Positions 2,766-34,888 of a stretch of DNA of 64,000 nucleotides are shown piece by piece. The number at the start of each line of letters is the position of its first letter. Position 1 is the stretch's first letter. This DNA comes from Candidatus Endomicrobium procryptotermitis (GTDB lineage Bacteria; Elusimicrobiota; Endomicrobiia; Endomicrobiales; Endomicrobiaceae), in assembly GCA_031279415.1 (NCBI GenBank), contig JAITIP010000018.1, positions 1 to 64,000 of the forward strand, read 5' to 3'. Under the pieces are notes generated by a model that saw nothing but the letters and a program-made list of their open reading frames with translations, was not told where the DNA came from and did not search any database. The position numbers were made by a program, and so were the translations under genes.

Positions 2766-3701
2766 TCATTTATCGGATGAAAGAAGTTCCACTAAAGCGG
2801 GTTGATTGAACGTTTTTGCATAATCTAGTGCCGTCAGTCCGTCAGGAGCTGTTTTTTTTCTGTTTGCACCGAGTTTAAGAAGGGTTTTTACCGTATTATA
2901 GTCGCCTTTTTTCGCCGCTGACATAAGCGGAGTCATGCTCAAAGAGTTGATGTGATCAATATTTGCTTTTTCCGATGATAGATATTCCATCATGTCTGTA
3001 TCTCCTGCAGACATCGCGTAAAATATTGGAGTATTGCTTTCCGAGTCTCCCAAATTGACGTCGGCGCCTTTTGAAATAAGGAGCCGTGCGATTTCTTTGT
3101 TTTTTAGTTTTACGGCGGCGATCAGCGGGGTTATGCCATTTTTGTCAGAGAGATTTATAAGCGCTCCTTCGTTTAAAAGAATTGCAGATATTTCATCCGA
3201 TGATGCTTCAACAGCTGTCAAAAGAGGAGTTTTCCCTGATTTGCTTTGGGCATTTATGTCTGAACTATATTTCAAAAGCATAATGACGTTTTCCATTTTT
3301 GCATTTGCACAGGCATGAATCAGGGCAGATTTTCCATCGATGTTAACTTTATTTACATCTGCCGATTCACACATAAGATATTGGGCTATTTCAAAATTGC
3401 TTTTTGATGATGCTATCATAAGCGGAGAGTTTCCATATTTGTCAGTTTTATTTATATCCGCGCCGTTTTTGACAAGAAATTTCACGATTTCAAAATTTTC
3501 TGCACTCACGGCCGCCATAAGCGGAGTTGAAGAATCGTAAAAAGGTTTGTCAGTGTCTGCACCTTTTTTGATAAGTTTTTTGACGGTTTTGTAATCATTT
3601 CTCTCGATCGCATAATGCAAATCGTATTCGTCGGCATTGAGAAAACGAATAAAAACTAAGAATACGGTTAATGATAAAAATAATGAGGTAAGTATTTTCA
3701 T
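2766..3701 (-). CDS. Secreted ankyrin-repeat protein
   Basis: This 311-residue protein starts with a cleavable-looking signal peptide (MKILTSLFLSLTVFLVFIRF, with likely cleavage near LNA-DE at about 24). About nine ankyrin repeats fill the rest, recognisable by the recurring TPLMAA/SPLMIA/TPLLTA segments and GADINK/GADVNL turns spaced by about 33 residues. Ankyrin repeats bind other proteins; the target cannot be read from sequence. The product should be periplasmic or exported. It stands alone on the minus strand, divergent from the OmpA/TpsB remnants. Function in envelope or host interaction is only inference. Confidence 0.88.
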   Translation of the reverse strand: MKILTSLFLSLTVFLVFIRFLNADEYDLHYAIERNDYKTVKKLIKKGADTDKPFYDSSTPLMAAVSAENFEIVKFLVKNGADINKTDKYGNSPLMIASSKSNFEIAQYLMCESADVNKVNIDGKSALIHACANAKMENVIMLLKYSSDINAQSKSGKTPLLTAVEASSDEISAILLNEGALINLSDKNGITPLIAAVKLKNKEIARLLISKGADVNLGDSESNTPIFYAMSAGDTDMMEYLSSEKANIDHINSLSMTPLMSAAKKGDYNTVKTLLKLGANRKKTAPDGLTALDYAKTFNQPALVELLSSDK

Positions 3702-25129: not shown

Positions 25130-28100
25130 TTATGCTGCAAACAGTATGTTTTTTACTGCTCTCAATGAGCCGTTATAATTATTTTTTTCAAAATTTATTT
25201 TAATTCTCCTTTCGTTATATATTTTAAATATCATTGCGAAATATGCAGCTGAAACTCTGCCTCTATATTCCCCTCCTTTTGCAAAACCTTCTTTTTTGAC
25301 AAAAAATTCCGGAAGAGTGAGATTATCCTCCAGATATAAAATTAAAGTTTCAAGCAGTGTTTTTCTTTCCGAATGCGATACGTGCATAAGATAATAGTAC
25401 AGATAAAACGGGTATGCGCTGCCTTTTTTGATTGCACCGTATTCTGTTAACGCATATTTTTTGAATTTTGCAGCGGACTTTTTTATATATGTGTTAAAAT
25501 CATCTATATTTATCAAAGCACTTAAAGAGAAAAGCATAAGAATGTCAGGTGAATAATAATTTTCTATGGTATTTTCAAAATATTTTTCTTTTATCGAATT
25601 TTTTGTCAGGTATATTTCATCTTCCAGATAGTCCGCACGCGCTGAATGTCCGACGATTTTATTCGCGGACGAACAAATTATCAAAGCGTTTAAATACAAA
25701 GCTTCGGACTCAAGAGAATCTATTTCGTTATATCTGCATTTTTCGACAATATTGTCTAAATAAGGGATTATTTTTTTTGTAAGCTCGTATTTTTCTTCAG
25801 CATATAAATCGTTACAAAATAATGAAAATTGTTCTATAAGCCATAACAATAATACCGTATTGCTTCCGTTATCTGAGATGGTTTGCCAGTTTTTAAAATA
25901 TTTATAAAGTTTTGAGGCAAAAGCGTTTTTGTTTCCGCCTCCTAAATATAAACCGTATAAAGACATTATATCGCTTGTCTGTGGAATATAATTTATAAAG
26001 TTATCTTTTATAAAAAACGAGTCGGCAAAAGCAGATACCTTAGACGGAAGCTCTTCGTTTACAGATTTATATTTGCCGTCGATAAGTCCATTCACGAAAC
26101 CGATCAGCTGCATAGTGTAAAGGTGTTTATTTTCTGCGATTGTGTGATTGTTTTTTAATTCGAGAACGTCTATATAACGCATTACGGGGGAAGTGCTGTC
26201 AAAATTGCTTAAATATTTTCTTGCGATTTGAAAAAGAGAACTGCCTTCAGAAATATAAGCAAAAAACTCTTCGCCTTCTTTTCCGTTAGTTTTTATATAC
26301 GAATAAATAGCGTTGAAAATAAGAATGCCCTTTGCTTTGATTTTATATACGACCTTTTCTTCATCGGATATAATTATTTTCCCTGCTTCTGCCGATAATG
26401 TTTTATTTCTCTTTGCTTCTCTGTATCCCAGCATATAATATTGCAGCTGGTCAGAATAAAAAGATTTTTTCATTTCTCTTTTACTGCGGCTTATGTTTTC
26501 CAGCTTTATTGCAGCATCGGAGAAAAAAGATAACGTGAAATTTATATGGTCAAAACCGCAGTTTTTTATCGTATACAGCATTTCTTCAACACCGGTAGAA
26601 TCGCTTATGCCTGTTTTGTATATGGCGTTTTGAACATTTTTTGAAGTTAACGCATAAGTGTTTTCTTTCCCCTGATATATCTCGGTATCGTTGTCCTCAT
26701 ATATAAGAATCGTTTTATCATTTAAACCATTTTGAAGTTTTTTGCGAAGATATTCACAGATATGTCGTTTGTCTTTATAGGAATCTATATTTGTTATGAG
26801 AAATCCGTCAAAAGAAATGCTCTCTTTTAAAAAATTTAATTTCTCTATAACTGCGAATTCTTTTGAAATTCCGTTATACTGTGCAAATAATATTTTTTCA
26901 CCGTTGTTGCAGCTTTCGAGAAAACCATCGCTTGAACCTGCGGATTGTGCTAAAGTCATCAAGTTTACTTTGACAAAAAGTTTTATTCCCTTTTCTTTTA
27001 ATTTTTTGCAGGACTCTCTAAGCTGATTGAAAACCATATATTCCATATATTTGATTTGTTCGATGGCATTATCCCATTTATGCGCGTATGCGGATTTTAC
27101 TGCGACAATTTCTTCATCGGTCAAAAAATTTTTTCCGCTTAATATTAAAGCTGCCATATATTCAAACCCTTTCTCTGAATTTGTAATAAAATTCGTTTTT
27201 TTAAATTTTTCAAATTCTGAAACTTCTTTCGGTTTTGTTTTCAAATATGACAACAATATTCCTGCTGCATAAAATCTTGATGGAACATTCTTCCAAGATT
27301 TAAGCTCGGCTTTTTCTTCAAACATAAGCCCGAGAAAACTGTTGTCTTTATATCCTATTCTGTTCATTTCCATTTTCAAATCGGCCAGCATGGGATTAAA
27401 AATATTTCCTATTACTGAACCTTTATCCGTCTCGGCATATAAATTTGAAATAATCGCCGAATTGATAACTGCTGGGTCAGCAAGCTTGTTGAGCACAAGA
27501 ATATCCGATACAATGTTTAAATTTAATGATGGAATTATTCTCTGAGTCGTATTTTCCGTAGAGGTTTCTATGTTTTCTTCGCCATTTTTTGGTGTTAAAG
27601 CACTTATCACATCAAATAAAGAATTTATGTATTTTTTTGCATCGGTATAAAAAATGTTTTTATCGAGCTTTACAAGCTTATAATCCTGTGAATCTATTTC
27701 CGCGTTTATGCTGCGCCCGAAATTTAATATGAAAGCTGCTTTGGAAAACAATGCCGATATAAGCCCGAGACAAATGGTTTTTTCTGCGATAATATTAAAG
27801 TTTTCGGCTTCCTGTGGGAGCTTTAACGGTATTTTTTCTTCCGGAGGAAAAACTATAATATCTTCACTTATGTTTTTATTTATATAAATACTGCAGAAAT
27901 TTATTTTATTAAGTGTTTCGTCGTTAAAAAATATGTCGTCTATGGTTTGAGGATTGGCAAAAACGCCGGCACCGTCTATCGATATCAGCGAAATCAGATT
28001 ATTCTGCAATGACTGCTTTGTAATACCTTTAAAATTAGCTGATTGTTTTCCCGAGGATAAAGACTCTTTTAAAAATGCCAACATACCTCTTCCTAGAAAA

Positions 28101-31100
28101 ACTCTTTTTCTTAACGCATCTATGCCATTGTCATATTCCTGCGACAATATACTGTTTATTATTTCGCATTCTTTTTCACTGAGAGTTCCGCTGTATAAAG
28201 GTGCGAAAGTTAAGATAGGACAATCATCGGCAAGTTTTTTTATTATGACTTTTGCCGAAACTTCTGTGTCTTCAATGGGAATATTGATAATCGTTCCATC
28301 TTCTCCAAAATTTTCGATGTTGTTTTCCAAAACCGCGCTTATGGAATTTATTCCGGCTTGTCGTGAAACCTGAGCGTGCCGTTTATAATCCGGATTTAAG
28401 TTCGGAGACAAAAAAATACATATCTTTTGAGTGTGCGAAATATTTTGTGTTACTTCATTTGCGAGTTTATTTGATGTGGATATAGGGTTTAACGTATGTT
28501 TTATGGAAGCTAAGCAGGGTGTAAGGATTGACGAACGTTCAACTTTTTGCAGATCATCGTCAAATTCTTTTTTATCCTCATATCTTTCCAAAAATGATTT
28601 TATAAAATTATAATATTCATTTGTCGGGTCAGCTTTGCTCAACATAGTTTCGGGCGATTGTACGATATTTATTTTTAGCGGTCTCTCGGAATTGATATAA
28701 AATTCTTTATGCAAAGCAAATATCCTAGAAAAAAAGTCATAATACTGCTTTCTTGTTCCACGGTTGGATATAGAAGCTGCCATCTTGGACAGATATACGT
28801 CTGCCGATTCTCCGTTGTTTAACATAATGTAAGGTATCATGATATGGTGAAAAAAATCTATCGGAAATTTAGTTCCTTCATAGTTTTCGACAAAATTTCT
28901 TAAAGCGTCTATGTAATGTGCAAAACCTTCAGCTTTGACTCCGCTGAGGGATATTGACATAAGCCCGGAAAACGTTGATACTTGTTCTTCGCTACCCTGC
29001 TTTTTTATGATATTTTCTAAAGTCTTTCTGAGCATATTGTCTGGAATTTGTTCTGGTTCAAAAGTTTTATATATTTTTTTTATAAGACTCTGTCCAGGTA
29101 TTTCTTCGCCTATTTCTCCTGCTATAAATAAAGGAAGATTTTGCGATCGTATCTGCTCATAACTTGCCTGCGCGCTTAAAAGCATTATGTCTCCGGACTG
29201 TTTTAAATTTCCCAAATACACATAAGAAGGATCTGCAATTACTAGTGAACCTTTTTTCACATTGTTTTGAATAAGTCCTACGGAGTTAAGCAAGGATATT
29301 TCGAGCGGTGTCGTCTTTTCCGAATTTATCGCAAAAGCGATTTCATCTAAAATATTTTTATGATTTGAGTTTCCGATATTTAAAATTATTGCTTCAATTT
29401 CCGATATATCTTTATCCGCTGTTTCGGGATATTTTATTTTAAGTTCTCCTGAGTTTATATAAGAAAGAATCTCTATCAAAACATTTGTGTCCGACGGACC
29501 AGAATTTATTATAAATTCAATTTTTACATTTTTTAAGTTTCCTTTTGACATTATCTTTTTAATCGCTTCCTTTATTTCATTTATACCGACGTTATCAGAA
29601 CTTATTGAGATAAAAAGTACATCGGGAACTCTTCCGTAACGGACTTTTGACAGCTGAGAGGCTTTGCTTTTTATTATTTCATTTCTTGGATGCTCCGATG
29701 TTGGTTTTTCATTTTTTATTCCGTAAATTATATTTGACACTTTAGTGTAAAGCAAGCCATAAACTATTGAAATCCAATGCATAACTATGGAAACTCCGAC
29801 TCCTGTTATAAAAACCATAAAAAACCTATAAGGACTTTCATAAAAACCGTTCCCGATGGAGTTTATTAGAAAAAACATAAGCGGAAACAATCTTGTCAGC
29901 ATTTTTCTGAATTTCCACGGCTCGTTAATCCCTATGTCAAATTTTTTCGGGTGGCTTTTGGCATACAGATATTGTTCGGAAAAAGATATGATTTTTTCAT
30001 TATCATATAATCCGGGTACAAGAGCGTTGCCGATATTTATTAAATTATGCATAGACTTTAAAAATCCTTTTTGTGAAGCATAAATGCCAAAATTTATTCC
30101 CATTACGTATCTTACTGCCGCAAGTATCTTAAGTTTTTCAAGAAAAAACAATTTTGTGTTTTTTGATATTCTGTAACCGTTTAAAATGTCCGCATTCATG
30201 GCATAACTGAGAGCTTTATAATACGATTGTGCATATTTTCCAATTTCTTCAAAGCTTTTTATTTCAAGAACGGCGCTTTCTTTTTCTAAATCTGTCATAT
30301 TCTTGATTTTATCCATAGAAGCGTTATAAAGCAGGCTGAAATCTTGTATTATCGAAATAATCTGTTCTTTGTTTTCTGGTATAAAAATATCTTTGTTAAA
30401 GACTGTGATTTTGATAATTTGTAAAGCATATTTTCTCATTATTTCAAGCGTATTGACGTTTAGATCGCCGGAATATAATACGCCATGCCATTTTAATAAA
30501 TAGTTTTGGGAGGCATTTACTATGTCTTTTTGTGGCATTGAAGAGGCAAGATTTTGCATTGAGTTTTCCGAAGGAAGAACGAGATTTTGAAAATATATGT
30601 TTGAATAAAATGCTTTATATTGAGCATTTCCATCTATTTCAGTGAGTATGTTTGAAAGTTCTTCTCTTATTTGCGAAAGAGTACGTTTGTCTCCTTCTTT
30701 AAAATATAATTGTACTTTTTCTTCGGCTTTGTGAATTTTTTTCAAAAGTCCAGAATTGTCTTTTGATACGGCATTTTTCAAGTCTTCTAAATCTTTTGAT
30801 ATTTCTATAAGCAGTGTATCTTCATCCGAGATGTACTTGAGCTTTTTGAAATATGCTTCGTCAGTTTTTGAAAAATTTTTAATTTTTTCCAAATAGAATT
30901 TATTACGTTTGCCGATAAAAATCATAAATCTGTGCAAAAATACGGATAATCCAAGTCCCGTACAAAGTGAAAAGATGATAGTGCCTATTACGCCCGTCTG
31001 CCCTATCAGCAGCAAATTGCCGTGTACGCTTGCAAGTGCGGCTATAAAAGCGTATGCAAGAGATTGTATGGTCAAAAATATCGACAATATTCGCTGTATG

Positions 31101-34100
31101 GCTTTTCTATCTCCCCATCTTTTTTCTATGCCCAAATATGTTTTTTCTGCAGGATGTTCTTTTTCAATAATAAATGTATTTACATCGTATAAAAGAGCGT
31201 AATAGTCATACATGGAACCACTTATAGAGTTGCCTAATGCGCAAAGTTTAAAAATTTGTTTTCTGAGAGACTCTTTCTCTTTTTGGAAATTTGTATGCAT
31301 GCCGAATATCATTCTGTTAAAATGCATTATCTTTGAACGTTCAAATATCGATGATTTAGGAAATATGTATCCGCCGAATATCGATATATTCTCAAAACTG
31401 TCCAAGATTCTTAAATATTCGAGCGAATAATATCCGGACAATATAAATAGTTTTTTGAGATTTTTAAGAGTTTGTGCGTCATTGGGAGGTATTCCGCTGT
31501 TTTCAGCGATATATTTGTCGATTAACTCTATATTTGTTTCACATTTTTTGACCATGTCTTTGTAGATTAAAACACTTTTTCTTCTTTGAGTATCGTAACT
31601 CTTCTTTTTCAATCTCGTATTGATGATTGTTTGGAAAAGCTGATTGTATGAATGTTCTATGGAATTTATAAAAGTGTTATCGCTCGCTTTTTGCAAAAAA
31701 TCAGAAGCAGGGGTATATTCATATTCAATAAAATCCTGCGGTAAAATTGTTTCTTCCAGACTGACATAAAGAGAATGGGGTTGTTTATAAGTGCTTATAT
31801 TTATGTTTTCTATAATGTTTTGAAAATTTGGATTCAGTAGCGAATCAAAAAATGACGAATAATTTTCATAAAATTCACCAAACTCTTTATCTATGCTCAT
31901 TTTCACGAAATACGATAAAGAATCTTCATGATTTTTCATTCTTAAAACAGGTATGAGAATATGCTGTATGAAATCAAGCGCAGGCGGGAAATTTGCCGCG
32001 TTTTCATTTCCATAAATATAGCTGTAGAGTTTTGATATATGTTCCCAAAATGACAGATAAATATTTTCATCTTCAAATCTGAATAAAATATTGCCGGTGG
32101 TGGTTTCGAATTGTCTGATTTCCCTATTGTCAAGATAGGAAGCTTTTTCCAGAAGGCTCTTTCTTTCAAGTTTGTCACCTATTTTTTCAATGTCGAAGTT
32201 ATAGTATATTTTAGGAATATTTTTTTTACCAGTTTCGTCTTTCATTATCCACGGCATTTTGTAATTCAATATTTCGTTGTAACTTGCCATTGAAGATATT
32301 ATTGTTATTTCGCTTTCGGGTTTCATATTTCCGATATAGACATTTCCTGGATTCATGAGAGCGATTCCACCTTTACCGCCGAATGACTGACACGCTCTTA
32401 CCCCGTTTAAAATGCTTAATTCAAGCGAAGTTATTTTTCTTGCGTTAAAGTTGAATGGCAGTTCTCTGCATACCGCCGATTTGTCTAAACCGTCTATATT
32501 AATCGCGCATATTTTTAAATCCGACCATTGCTTGTATTTTATATTTTTAAATCTTATGCGCTTTTTTAACGATTTTATATATTGTGCTATTCCTACAAAA
32601 GACGCTCCCGTGCCGTTATCGCTGACATGAATAAATTTAAAATTGACTTTTCCGAGAGGAGTTAAAGATTTCAATTTTTTAAGAGCGTTTTTATAGTATT
32701 TTATGTCGTCTTTGTTTTTAACGCATATAAGTACAATGTCTGGCATGGCACCATTTAAAGAATCCAAAGTTTTTGAATATTCGTTCATGATAACGGATTC
32801 TCTTGTTGAGTAATTTCTAATAATATTTTGCTTTTGCTTCTGCTTATTAAAAATTTTGACAAGAAGATTTCTTATTGGATTTAAAAAACTTTTTAGCTTT
32901 GTTTCTTGCTTATTTTCAATATTATTTATGATTATTCTCTTATTCTTATCTATGGCGGCTTTTAATGGAATTTTTCTTTTGGAAAACCAGTCGTTTACGG
33001 CTTTAATCGTTTTTTGCGAGTAGATATTGTCAAAACCTGCCCAAAAATCGATTAAAGCTTTAAAATTATTTCCCTCTAAGCCTATACTTATGAGCGGTGG
33101 TGCCAGTGCTGAAGAAACTGACGCGGCGGATATTTGAATAACGCTTTTATATAAATTTTGCGAAGTTTCACATACAGTAGGCATTAAAGATATATAGGAT
33201 AAATCATCTTTAATCAAATCGACAGTTGTCCCGTGGAAACCGCCTATTACCGCCACATTGACGCTTTTATACGATTTATTGTTAAAAATAATATTATTTT
33301 TTGGGGTTTCGCCTGCAAGCGTCCTTTGGATATTTTTATAAAAAATGCTGTTACGTAAAATATTGTTTTCATAGTATTTGACTATTTCGTCGTCGGATAA
33401 TATCTCGGATATTTTGAGATAATCTTCTTTGTTTAAATATTTGAAACAAGTTTTCAAAATCGAACTTTTATTTTCCAAAACATAATAAAATTCTTTTTCC
33501 GACACAGTAAGGGTTTTGTATTTATCCAAAATATCCATAAGAAAATATAAATATACATCTGCATCCGCATATGAAGAGCTGATTATGCCGTCCTGCAATA
33601 TTTCTGTTTGCAATATGAGCTTGTTTGGGTTTAAAGAGTTTTTAAGCTCATTGAGGTATAACAACCTGGCCAAATTTGGAAACTGTATTAGGATATCATT
33701 GAAACGGGTATTTAATAGTGCATATAAATCCGACAGAAATTTGCCGCTTCCGCTTTTTGATGGTTCTTCTGTCAACTTAACAAATTCTGAATATGGAATA
33801 TTCTTTTTCAAAAATTCCCATACAGAATATATATCTTTGTAAGCATTTTTTTCATTCAAAGATTCTTTTAATTGAGCTATTGTTAAATATTTGTTTATTT
33901 CATCATAATATTTTAAATCTATGGAAAAATCTCCGAAGATGCTTCCGGTTTTGCGTATAGATCTTCCCGTGTTTTTGTCAGGATTTTTTACTTCTTCTAT
34001 GGTTTTTATAATGCCGCGGCTTTTTTTGCCGGCGCCGTAATATAATCTTTCTTTCATGGCTGACAGGAAGCTTTCATTGTTTTCATGTTTTTTGGAGGCT

Positions 34101-34561
34101 GTCTTTAAGTTGTCTACATATATAGCCCAATCTTCCAGTCCGTAAATGTTTCTAAAATCATTATTTACGGCAAAAACTTCGGCGCCGCTGGCAAGTCCTG
34201 AAAAAAGAAATATATCCATGATTTTTTTCTTTCCATCATCTTTGCCGTCAATATTTGAAATATCTATTTTACCATGCGGCGCTCCTTCTGCAAAAACATA
34301 ATTTAAAACACCGCAGTCATGTAATTTTGAAAGCAGATTGAATATTAGTTTTTGAATATCTGGATTTGTGTGCATATCGTTTACGAATATTATGAGAGGA
34401 GTGTCGTACTTATATGATGAATCGACAACTGTAAATCCGCTGAAAATGTCGGATACGACATTTTTATTGTTTGTGGTAAAAGCGTGGCATATATCTGAAG
34501 ATGCCATTAAAAAAATACATAAAGAAATCGTTAGAGTTATAATTTTTTTTGAGATAGTCAT
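25130..34561 (-). CDS. Giant 3,143-residue exported/membrane protein with duplicated module
   Basis: A single uninterrupted frame starts at ATG 34561 with an AAAGGAG SD. Residues 1-28 form a signal peptide or anchor (LTISLCIFLMASSDICHAF). Residues about 55-445 look like a ChaN/TraB-type fold: IIFVNDMHTNPDIQ (His64, Gln70), VFAEGAPHG (Glu92), FAVNNDFRNIYGLEDW and the closing VAVIGGFHGTTVDLI (about 434-448). An alpha/beta plus helical module then occurs twice, about 1,040 residues apart: MPDIVLICVKNK...VYIGNMK...FIQHILIPVL (about 605-880) and VPDVLFISISSD...VYLGNLK...FFHHIMIPYI (about 1642-1900). Two hydrophobic hairpins lie near 1155-1235 and 1555-1615. The last 1,200 residues are largely helical and unrecognised. 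Catalysis and substrate are unknown. Confidence 0.85.
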   Translation of the reverse strand: MTISKKIITLTISLCIFLMASSDICHAFTTNNKNVVSDIFSGFTVVDSSYKYDTPLIIFVNDMHTNPDIQKLIFNLLSKLHDCGVLNYVFAEGAPHGKIDISNIDGKDDGKKKIMDIFLFSGLASGAEVFAVNNDFRNIYGLEDWAIYVDNLKTASKKHENNESFLSAMKERLYYGAGKKSRGIIKTIEEVKNPDKNTGRSIRKTGSIFGDFSIDLKYYDEINKYLTIAQLKESLNEKNAYKDIYSVWEFLKKNIPYSEFVKLTEEPSKSGSGKFLSDLYALLNTRFNDILIQFPNLARLLYLNELKNSLNPNKLILQTEILQDGIISSSYADADVYLYFLMDILDKYKTLTVSEKEFYYVLENKSSILKTCFKYLNKEDYLKISEILSDDEIVKYYENNILRNSIFYKNIQRTLAGETPKNNIIFNNKSYKSVNVAVIGGFHGTTVDLIKDDLSYISLMPTVCETSQNLYKSVIQISAASVSSALAPPLISIGLEGNNFKALIDFWAGFDNIYSQKTIKAVNDWFSKRKIPLKAAIDKNKRIIINNIENKQETKLKSFLNPIRNLLVKIFNKQKQKQNIIRNYSTRESVIMNEYSKTLDSLNGAMPDIVLICVKNKDDIKYYKNALKKLKSLTPLGKVNFKFIHVSDNGTGASFVGIAQYIKSLKKRIRFKNIKYKQWSDLKICAINIDGLDKSAVCRELPFNFNARKITSLELSILNGVRACQSFGGKGGIALMNPGNVYIGNMKPESEITIISSMASYNEILNYKMPWIMKDETGKKNIPKIYYNFDIEKIGDKLERKSLLEKASYLDNREIRQFETTTGNILFRFEDENIYLSFWEHISKLYSYIYGNENAANFPPALDFIQHILIPVLRMKNHEDSLSYFVKMSIDKEFGEFYENYSSFFDSLLNPNFQNIIENINISTYKQPHSLYVSLEETILPQDFIEYEYTPASDFLQKASDNTFINSIEHSYNQLFQTIINTRLKKKSYDTQRRKSVLIYKDMVKKCETNIELIDKYIAENSGIPPNDAQTLKNLKKLFILSGYYSLEYLRILDSFENISIFGGYIFPKSSIFERSKIMHFNRMIFGMHTNFQKEKESLRKQIFKLCALGNSISGSMYDYYALLYDVNTFIIEKEHPAEKTYLGIEKRWGDRKAIQRILSIFLTIQSLAYAFIAALASVHGNLLLIGQTGVIGTIIFSLCTGLGLSVFLHRFMIFIGKRNKFYLEKIKNFSKTDEAYFKKLKYISDEDTLLIEISKDLEDLKNAVSKDNSGLLKKIHKAEEKVQLYFKEGDKRTLSQIREELSNILTEIDGNAQYKAFYSNIYFQNLVLPSENSMQNLASSMPQKDIVNASQNYLLKWHGVLYSGDLNVNTLEIMRKYALQIIKITVFNKDIFIPENKEQIISIIQDFSLLYNASMDKIKNMTDLEKESAVLEIKSFEEIGKYAQSYYKALSYAMNADILNGYRISKNTKLFFLEKLKILAAVRYVMGINFGIYASQKGFLKSMHNLINIGNALVPGLYDNEKIISFSEQYLYAKSHPKKFDIGINEPWKFRKMLTRLFPLMFFLINSIGNGFYESPYRFFMVFITGVGVSIVMHWISIVYGLLYTKVSNIIYGIKNEKPTSEHPRNEIIKSKASQLSKVRYGRVPDVLFISISSDNVGINEIKEAIKKIMSKGNLKNVKIEFIINSGPSDTNVLIEILSYINSGELKIKYPETADKDISEIEAIILNIGNSNHKNILDEIAFAINSEKTTPLEISLLNSVGLIQNNVKKGSLVIADPSYVYLGNLKQSGDIMLLSAQASYEQIRSQNLPLFIAGEIGEEIPGQSLIKKIYKTFEPEQIPDNMLRKTLENIIKKQGSEEQVSTFSGLMSISLSGVKAEGFAHYIDALRNFVENYEGTKFPIDFFHHIMIPYIMLNNGESADVYLSKMAASISNRGTRKQYYDFFSRIFALHKEFYINSERPLKINIVQSPETMLSKADPTNEYYNFIKSFLERYEDKKEFDDDLQKVERSSILTPCLASIKHTLNPISTSNKLANEVTQNISHTQKICIFLSPNLNPDYKRHAQVSRQAGINSISAVLENNIENFGEDGTIINIPIEDTEVSAKVIIKKLADDCPILTFAPLYSGTLSEKECEIINSILSQEYDNGIDALRKRVFLGRGMLAFLKESLSSGKQSANFKGITKQSLQNNLISLISIDGAGVFANPQTIDDIFFNDETLNKINFCSIYINKNISEDIIVFPPEEKIPLKLPQEAENFNIIAEKTICLGLISALFSKAAFILNFGRSINAEIDSQDYKLVKLDKNIFYTDAKKYINSLFDVISALTPKNGEENIETSTENTTQRIIPSLNLNIVSDILVLNKLADPAVINSAIISNLYAETDKGSVIGNIFNPMLADLKMEMNRIGYKDNSFLGLMFEEKAELKSWKNVPSRFYAAGILLSYLKTKPKEVSEFEKFKKTNFITNSEKGFEYMAALILSGKNFLTDEEIVAVKSAYAHKWDNAIEQIKYMEYMVFNQLRESCKKLKEKGIKLFVKVNLMTLAQSAGSSDGFLESCNNGEKILFAQYNGISKEFAVIEKLNFLKESISFDGFLITNIDSYKDKRHICEYLRKKLQNGLNDKTILIYEDNDTEIYQGKENTYALTSKNVQNAIYKTGISDSTGVEEMLYTIKNCGFDHINFTLSFFSDAAIKLENISRSKREMKKSFYSDQLQYYMLGYREAKRNKTLSAEAGKIIISDEEKVVYKIKAKGILIFNAIYSYIKTNGKEGEEFFAYISEGSSLFQIARKYLSNFDSTSPVMRYIDVLELKNNHTIAENKHLYTMQLIGFVNGLIDGKYKSVNEELPSKVSAFADSFFIKDNFINYIPQTSDIMSLYGLYLGGGNKNAFASKLYKYFKNWQTISDNGSNTVLLLWLIEQFSLFCNDLYAEEKYELTKKIIPYLDNIVEKCRYNEIDSLESEALYLNALIICSSANKIVGHSARADYLEDEIYLTKNSIKEKYFENTIENYYSPDILMLFSLSALINIDDFNTYIKKSAAKFKKYALTEYGAIKKGSAYPFYLYYYLMHVSHSERKTLLETLILYLEDNLTLPEFFVKKEGFAKGGEYRGRVSAAYFAMIFKIYNERRIKINFEKNNYNGSLRAVKNILFAA

Positions 34562-34888
34562 GATGTAAATCTCCTTTTTGTCATATGATAAGAAACAGAA
34601 ATTAAGAACTTATAAATGTTTTGTTAAAAATGGGTTAAAAATATTTGATGGAATTTAAAAGCGATGTGACTGGCTGAAAATGCTGTTATTTTATGCTGTG
34701 ACAAAGGACAAGCATGCGCAAAGTTGGTGAGCGTTTTTTATGAATAGTTTATTGCTAACGAAAAATTAACAATTCCTTTATTTTCTCTTAATTTACGTTT
34801 TGTATTATTTTGTTGTGAAGAGACAAAATCCGAAGCGGAGTCTTTGAATAACGGACTTGAAATGTCCGCAAAAAAGGGAGGAAAAGGA
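34562..34888. promoter_or_regulatory. Divergent regulatory region, giant gene / porin-pst operon
   Basis: About 325 bases separate the two divergent genes. GCTGTTATTTTATGCTGTGA (34682-34701) contains two CTGT half-sites reminiscent of a Pho box, but the half-sites start 13 rather than 11 bases apart. No convincing sigma-70 pair was chosen. A small CGGAC/GTCCG hairpin (34853-34869) precedes the porin SD. Phosphate control from here is expected from the downstream genes, not proved. Confidence 0.3.

Follow-up and report, generated by a model that had tools for sequence, protein, structure and literature searches.

A 3,143-residue exported protein of Candidatus Endomicrobium procryptotermitis with a head and a C-terminal tail shared among giant proteins of Elusimicrobiota

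Within the window analyzed here, the 64,000 nucleotides at positions 1 to 64,000 of contig JAITIP010000018.1 of Candidatus Endomicrobium procryptotermitis (an assembly of 2.0 Mb in 46 contigs), a single minus-strand frame at 25130-34561, with its ATG at 34561 and its stop codon at 25130-25132, encodes a protein of 3,143 amino acids (Table 1). The plus strand across the same interval holds 181 stops. The N-terminus, in which KK is followed by a hydrophobic stretch and then by CHA-F, has the form of a signal peptide, confirming the original prediction of an exported 3,143-residue protein from an unbroken 9.4-kb frame. In a Pfam scan of the giant protein itself, no family exceeded its cut-off. 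Its nearest neighbors are intact housekeeping genes (hrcA, grpE, dnaK, dnaJ, phoB/phoR, a porin gene, pst, and phoU), so the wealth of pseudogenes previously ascribed to this region is not evident beside the gene.

Table 1. Features of the giant gene and its product, with positions in the window
Feature	Residues	Positions	Strand	Remarks
Giant gene		25130..34561	-	3,143 aa, ATG to TAA; no internal stops
Shine-Dalgarno AAGGAGAT		34569..34576	-	Read from the sequence; immediately upstream of the ATG
Signal peptide	1-28	34478..34561	-	Hydropathy peak 2.0, AxA-type site; in orthologues too
Head domain, Tiki/TraB/ChaN-like	45-465	33167..34429	-	H64, E92, R403, G440GFH443; PF04187 in relatives
Module A1, alpha/beta	575-940	31742..32839	-	Possible fold relation to the GDP-fucose pyrophosphorylase portion of FKP; no Pfam family
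Module C1, helical	976-1240	30842..31636	-	Membrane hairpin 1157-1217 (30911-31093)
Module C2, copy of C1	1345-1602	29756..30529	-	Hairpin about 1556-1606
Module A2, copy of A1	1616-1977	28631..29716	-	29% identity, E=3e-32
Region with no assigned function	2040-2330	27572..28444	-	Related to the L078 region upstream of its phosphorylase-like part, blastp E=3e-6
Pseudo-4-alpha-glucanotransferase (GH77/GH13-like)	2331-2780	26222..27571	-	RLD -> LIT, SHD segment deleted
Pseudo-GDE_C (amylo-1,6-glucosidase)	2800-3131	25169..26164	-	Retains LPE; the WMD and TPRNGK segments are deleted
C-terminal tail SLRAVKNILFAA		25133..25168	-	Family signature [IV][KR]x[IVM][LM]x[AS]A-COOH

The relatives compared by name were Endomicrobia and other Elusimicrobia, including termite-gut and rumen metagenome-assembled genomes. 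Orthologues of the giant gene are intact in three of them (G004, G031, and G023), a fourth (G001) has one that lacks its 5' part because the contig ends there, and in several genomes the frame stays open at about 50-57% identity. Against the G004 orthologue, every folded domain shows a pN of 0.20-0.31 and a pS of 0.62-0.77; purifying selection acts on all folded parts of the protein, which demonstrates directly what the open frame alone had led the original prediction to propose. The linker between modules C1 and C2 (residues 1241-1340) evolves fast and is looser than the folded regions, at 24-34% identity. Gene order around the locus varies, with phoBR, the porin gene, and pst here, ppk in the G004 relative, and gyrAB in the rumen species. 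The search for shared neighbors that had been proposed accordingly returned no gene conserved across the species compared that would name a substrate or partner, and an operon with phoBR/pst or ppk was rejected, as the neighbors differ between species. No Pho-box-like site was found in the promoter region of the giant gene. In G004, a polyphosphate-kinase gene lies directly 3' of the giant gene, and in G001 a frame of similar size to that gene occupies the same side (loci L021:5844-8003 and L040:8711-10867); this is not the case here, the flanks being phoBR and pst.

Behind the head, two kinds of module are each present twice in the order A1-C1-C2-A2. Residues 560-985 and 1600-1990 can be aligned across 310 aa, 29% of them identical (E=3e-32), with a score of 323 against a shuffle maximum of 67, and the regions around the two C hairpins align at 23% identity over 179 aa (E=9e-11); head/A1 and A1/C1, compared as controls, do no better than shuffles. 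The predicted internal duplication is therefore real, and the two hydrophobic hairpins are copies of each other as suggested, but the duplicated unit is not 1,040 residues long: it measures about 330 aa for A and 180-260 aa for C, and ~1,040 is the spacing between the A copies. Both hairpins carry K/R on both flanks. The same architecture recurs in the orthologues; across the phylum, 19 of 341 genomes have the A-C-C-A core, essentially within a single taxonomic order, and it was not detected in any of the genomes searched of g8, a genus with mostly reduced genomes. Module A, for which no Pfam relative was found, is present once in another giant (G104).

A predicted structure of the head and A1 together (pLDDT 82.6, mostly 75-96 within the head) has FKP, a bifunctional fucokinase/GDP-fucose pyrophosphorylase, as its top Foldseek match, with a probability of 1.00, E=2.4e-3, and an rmsd of 7.4 over 392 columns, the aligned query range not being given; we take the match to lie on A1, because A1 has the alternating alpha/beta order. 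Module A may thus resemble a GDP-fucose pyrophosphorylase by fold only, as a structural lead. FKP needs the motif HxGGxSxRxP(x)5GK, its GTP site (PMC6468028), which the family alignment shows in neither A1 nor A2; A1 does have a conserved G-x-G loop and conserved N-G-[KR] positions. Compared by sequence, module A and an FKP fragment gave a negative result, 91 of 150 shuffles being as good, and the FKP link therefore remains a structural lead. The giant also differs from FKP in having two copies of A and in the nature of its fusion. The FKP chain in the PDB was located with a fragment of human FPGT, used as bait only, and the same fragment found no match when searched against plasmids. A genome search with PF07959 returned incomplete matches covering the latter half of that Pfam model, mostly in ordinary frames of 340-480 aa, and these were read as hexapeptide beta-helix noise.

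The C-terminal 1,200 residues had been described as matching nothing, which proved wrong. Residues 2091-3116 match a relative, L038 (blastp E=5e-19), whose tail matches solved debranching enzymes, and GH77 and GDE_C are carried by family members. L056 and L078, giants at a greater distance, have phosphorylase as well as GH77 and GDE_C and keep RLD, AE[SA]F, SHD, WMD, and TPRNGKPVE. The motifs decay stepwise: L037 and L038 have lost RLD and SHD, with WMT in L038, and the A-C-C-A family has lost the motifs, the 3,143-aa giant having lost or deleted every glucan catalytic motif except a Glu and LPE. The catalytic Asp/Glu/Asp of GH77 is not conserved in it (the nucleophile motif RLD has become LIT, and the SHD segment is gone), and of the GDE_C pair the acid (WMD region) is missing and the base (LPE) present. 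In rumen relatives, the GDE domain is deleted. The C-terminal ~1,150 aa thus descend from a pair of enzymes, a 4-alpha-glucanotransferase and an amylo-1,6-glucosidase, and are catalytically dead. Residues 2331-3131 share domain order and, through L037, L038, L056, and L078, homology with bifunctional glycogen debranching enzymes, from which they differ in lacking the catalytic residues, in being exported, and in being fused to the head. Because pN stays far below pS here too (0.26-0.32 vs 0.67-0.71 against the G004 orthologue), this part is a retained pseudoenzyme, presumably for binding or scaffolding.

The head (residues 45-465) is homologous to the N-termini of many other large proteins. 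Its motifs, given earlier as D-x-H-T-N-P, E-G, and GGFHG, are present as stated, with DxHxNP at 62-67, EGAP at 92-95, and GGFHG at 440-444. Across 37 diverse members, H64, Q70, I73, E92, G93, R403, G440, G441, and H443 are invariant and the pattern D-x-H, E-G-A, R-[ND]-x-x-[FM], GG[FY]H nearly so; the first motif reads [QN]-D-x-H64, and both E92 and the second motif, GGFH443, are invariant. Judged from the alignment, the head would be the sole part of the giant with an invariant constellation of catalytic type. The conserved segment S-S-[AF]-[LF]-[AS]-P-x-L follows the head directly in many giants, here at residues 477-495 (33077-33133).

The Tiki/TraB/ChaN superfamily (PF04187, PF01963) includes the Tiki peptidases, the heme protein ChaN, and PrgY. 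Among the 37 head relatives, PF04187 (ChaN, Tiki superfamily) leads the Pfam families (5 of 37, best 3.5e-7 for an isolated head), and it passes the gathering cut-off, at 31.2 vs 27.7 bits, in the head of a 4,034-aa frame (G107:C43), the one relative above the cut-off, to which the giant's head is linked through the head-family profile (E=1.9e-31 for G107:C43). The predicted order of elements (strand, D-x-H, helix, strand with E-G, long helical insertion, helix with R-N, strand, GGFH) recalls the superfamily in its beta-alpha-beta start with D-x-H, in the Glu on the next strand, and in the R-[ND]-x-x-[FM] helix ahead of a G-x-x-H strand. It differs in that the first motif is [QN]-D-x-H rather than G-x-x-H, that there is a helical insertion of about 250 aa, and that the domain here forms the N-terminal part of giant proteins. 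The giant's own head alone gave no PF04187 match, hhalign of the head against ChaN was weak (probability 2-5%), a PDB sequence search with the head, A, and full-length profiles gave nothing significant, and a first AF2 model (16 alignment rows, pLDDT 67.6) had no significant fold matches. No ChaN, TraB, or Tiki structure was among the 50 matches listed per Foldseek search of the head models, and we therefore call the head Tiki/ChaN-like rather than proven. The ChaN/TraB-like head of the original prediction is thus supported by sequence, through PF04187 and the conserved motifs, and not by Foldseek or profile-profile comparison. The same genome encodes, besides the head giants, a separate ordinary ChaN-family protein at C35:47416-48015 (PF04187 E=1.8e-51).

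Searched with the head profile, the genome yields at least 13 intact copies and one broken copy; the open frames that hold them measure from 696 to 10,988 aa, and several are cut by contig ends. The head and tail counts come from searches. G061 has 18 head copies in frames of up to 12,656 aa, which add up to about 122,000 aa and occupy roughly 11% of that 3.4-Mb genome. Members range from about 1,000 aa upward, the longest head frame in relatives reaches 12,656 aa, and the profile matches 68 of 336 Elusimicrobiota genomes (E<=1e-8). The copies in this genome share a conserved front domain and, where complete, the last ten amino acids, around unrelated middles; over the family as a whole, the middles include dead glucan enzymes and MFS, PPDK/PEP-utilizer, SecA_DEAD, GT2-like, RelA/SpoT, GT5, HD, GGDEF, TIM, and GAPDH regions.

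All eight complete members sampled in the genome end in [ILMV]-[LM]-x-A-A (ILSAA, VLAAA, IMSAA, ILQAA, MLSAA, ILSAA, LLSAA, and, in the 3,143-aa giant, ILFAA). Among the head giants of relatives, the tail is present in 11 of 12 in G013, 4 of 5 in G063, and, in its strict form, 4 of 14 in G061; giants of the distant class in G107 (L221-L230) end instead in ..QQ, ..QQA, or ..SSA, which may be a version of the same tail particular to that class. None of 124 unrelated ORFs carries the motif. In a broader sample, 395 unique non-head ORFs with a length of 200 aa or more, it occurs in 10, and most of these are the C-terminal portions of head giants that a locus edge interrupts. A strict DNA pattern (I-[LMIV]-x-A-A-stop) searched over the genome had 12 matches vs 9 for the reversed control; five of the 12 end long frames, four of which are head giants while the fifth, of 7,511 aa, is open to the start of its contig, and in-frame matches at long-ORF ends in this genome occur only on giants. 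Synonymous codons differ between copies, so conservation of the tail is at the protein level, and the rumen orthologues retain it though the adjacent GDE domain is deleted. Leu occupies position -4 in 27 of 30 tails, which were picked for matching the motif and make this profile descriptive only. The non-polar Ala-Ala end is reminiscent of an ssrA-type degron (LAA-COOH), but with Leu at -4 and not -3 these tails do not end in LAA, and they further differ in being genome-encoded, in carrying Lys/Arg at -7, and in occurring only on exported giants. Together, head and tail support the recognition of a giant-protein family across Elusimicrobiota, and it is for this reason that the "undescribed system" suspected at this locus is upheld in a wider sense, though not as a single-gene orphan.

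In Omnitrophota, giant ORFs that contain numerous membrane segments and few recognized domains have been linked to attachment or predation (PMC10066038), and Elusimicrobiota are enriched in huge proteins (PMC11573180). The proteins described here resemble these in their great length, membrane segments, and few Pfam domains, and differ in their shared N-terminal head and C-terminal tail, neither of which is described in the available parts of the two reports (PMC10066038, PMC11573180). Against the Omnitrophota-type criterion of a frame >20 kb, the giant gene, at 9.4 kb, falls below, and its relatives reach 12,656 aa. The head-tail signature is not described in the papers searched, preprints and the majority of subscription journals aside, and, as far as we found, this architecture, present across much of Elusimicrobiota, has not yet been described. 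The huge proteins of the phylum had been known only as an unannotated statistical excess (PMC11573180); the shared head and C-terminal signature unite many of these giants in a single family that can be tested and that has a search key, and they suggest a new way of exporting or policing very long polypeptides. Enzyme-derived modules are here reused, catalytically dead yet under selection, in exported proteins of gut symbionts.

The reading that we favor, at a probability of roughly 45%, is that of Sec-exported giant envelope proteins composed of a signal peptide, a constant metallohydrolase-like head, an interchangeable middle, and a recognition tail of ~10 residues. It builds on the architecture, duplication, dead glucan-enzyme part, purifying selection, and head-tail association observed above. 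Sec would export the giant, the two C hairpins would hold it in the inner membrane, and the head, the A modules, and the glucan-derived part would sit in the periplasm. The head may be a metal-dependent hydrolase of Tiki/TraB/ChaN type, with H64, E92, and H443 as candidate metal ligands, and is probably a peptidase or amidase whose target is either a component of the envelope or its own polypeptide; the middle would offer a ligand-binding or scaffolding surface, of sugar or glucan type, rather than an enzyme. The tail could be a recognition signal for a periplasmic factor, such as a PDZ/Tsp-type protease, or for the head, and its reader would check or process the finished chain. The main inconsistency with a periplasmic topology is the positive charge on both sides of the hairpins, which would fit cytosolic flanks; the weaker tail in G061 and its absence in G107 also count against this reading, as does the lack of a conserved neighbor that would name a substrate or partner, and the fold matches listed and the hhalign result count against a Tiki-type head. 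A bolder version, which we consider doubtful, is a dedicated Elusimicrobiota export-and-maturation system, in which each cargo has its own Tiki-type metallopeptidase head, the same machinery reads the AA tail, and the interchangeable middles, partly from duplicated central-carbon and glucan enzymes, take up roughly 5-11% of some genomes.

Several other explanations have to be weighed against this one. That the giant is a surface or attachment protein binding host, prey, or polysaccharide, its head merely a folding or export aid, would agree with what is reported of Omnitrophota and Elusimicrobiota giants (PMC10066038, PMC11573180) and with middles that derive from carbohydrate enzymes and are catalytically dead; we regard it as unlikely, as no adhesin domain was found in the 3,143-aa giant or in the other members scanned, and the invariant head constellation argues for more than folding. 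The constant ends around unrelated middles, together with the fast-evolving linker between C1 and C2, are also what a self-cutting polyprotein might look like, in which a head peptidase frees the middle modules and the tail is a cleavage site or completion signal. Peptidases do occur among Tiki-type proteins (RRSP and Tiki), but each protein has a single head, which in frames of 12,000 aa would need a long reach to cut, and we give this account only a slim chance.

The two remaining alternatives bear on the middle. If A1 and A2 were working nucleotidyltransferases of sugar-nucleotide metabolism and the middle faced the cytosol, the FKP match, the conserved G-x-G and N-G-[KR] positions, and the positive flanks of the hairpins would all find an explanation; the missing GTP-site motif and the lack of a sequence-level FKP signal count against activity, as does a signal peptide unaccompanied by a further membrane segment that would return the chain, and we judge such an enzyme improbable. 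Drift of an old enzyme fusion without function is suggested by the lost glucan catalytic residues, the GDE deletion in rumen relatives, and the failure to detect the core family in the reduced g8 genomes searched, yet it is hardly credible, being largely refuted by the selection test, in which pN is far below pS even in the pseudoenzyme part, and by a frame that stays open in several diverged genomes.

Individual head giants show further features. The 4,034-aa, apparently exported giant in G107:C43 (L135) contains a triosephosphate isomerase region with GHSE and YEP kept, as well as a C-terminal part of GAPDH with the Cys of SCTTG kept. A 2,885-aa head protein of the own genome (C37, L071:4850-13504) combines PPDK_N and PEP-utilizer parts, with the motif GGGVLSHAAI, in an order apparently reversed relative to normal PPDK. 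The 10,988-aa giant on C13 (about 9978-42940; L174, L175) ends in IRQILSAA and has a SecA_DEAD-like match, with which the SecA-like domains reportedly described for Omnitrophota giants in a preprint would fit. The head copy at C33:7992-8650 is broken and contains a TGA in frame. Contigs C4, C20, C21, C37, C41, and C43 break within giant genes, and several of these contig ends share near-identical peptide sequence, suggesting recent copying between giants.
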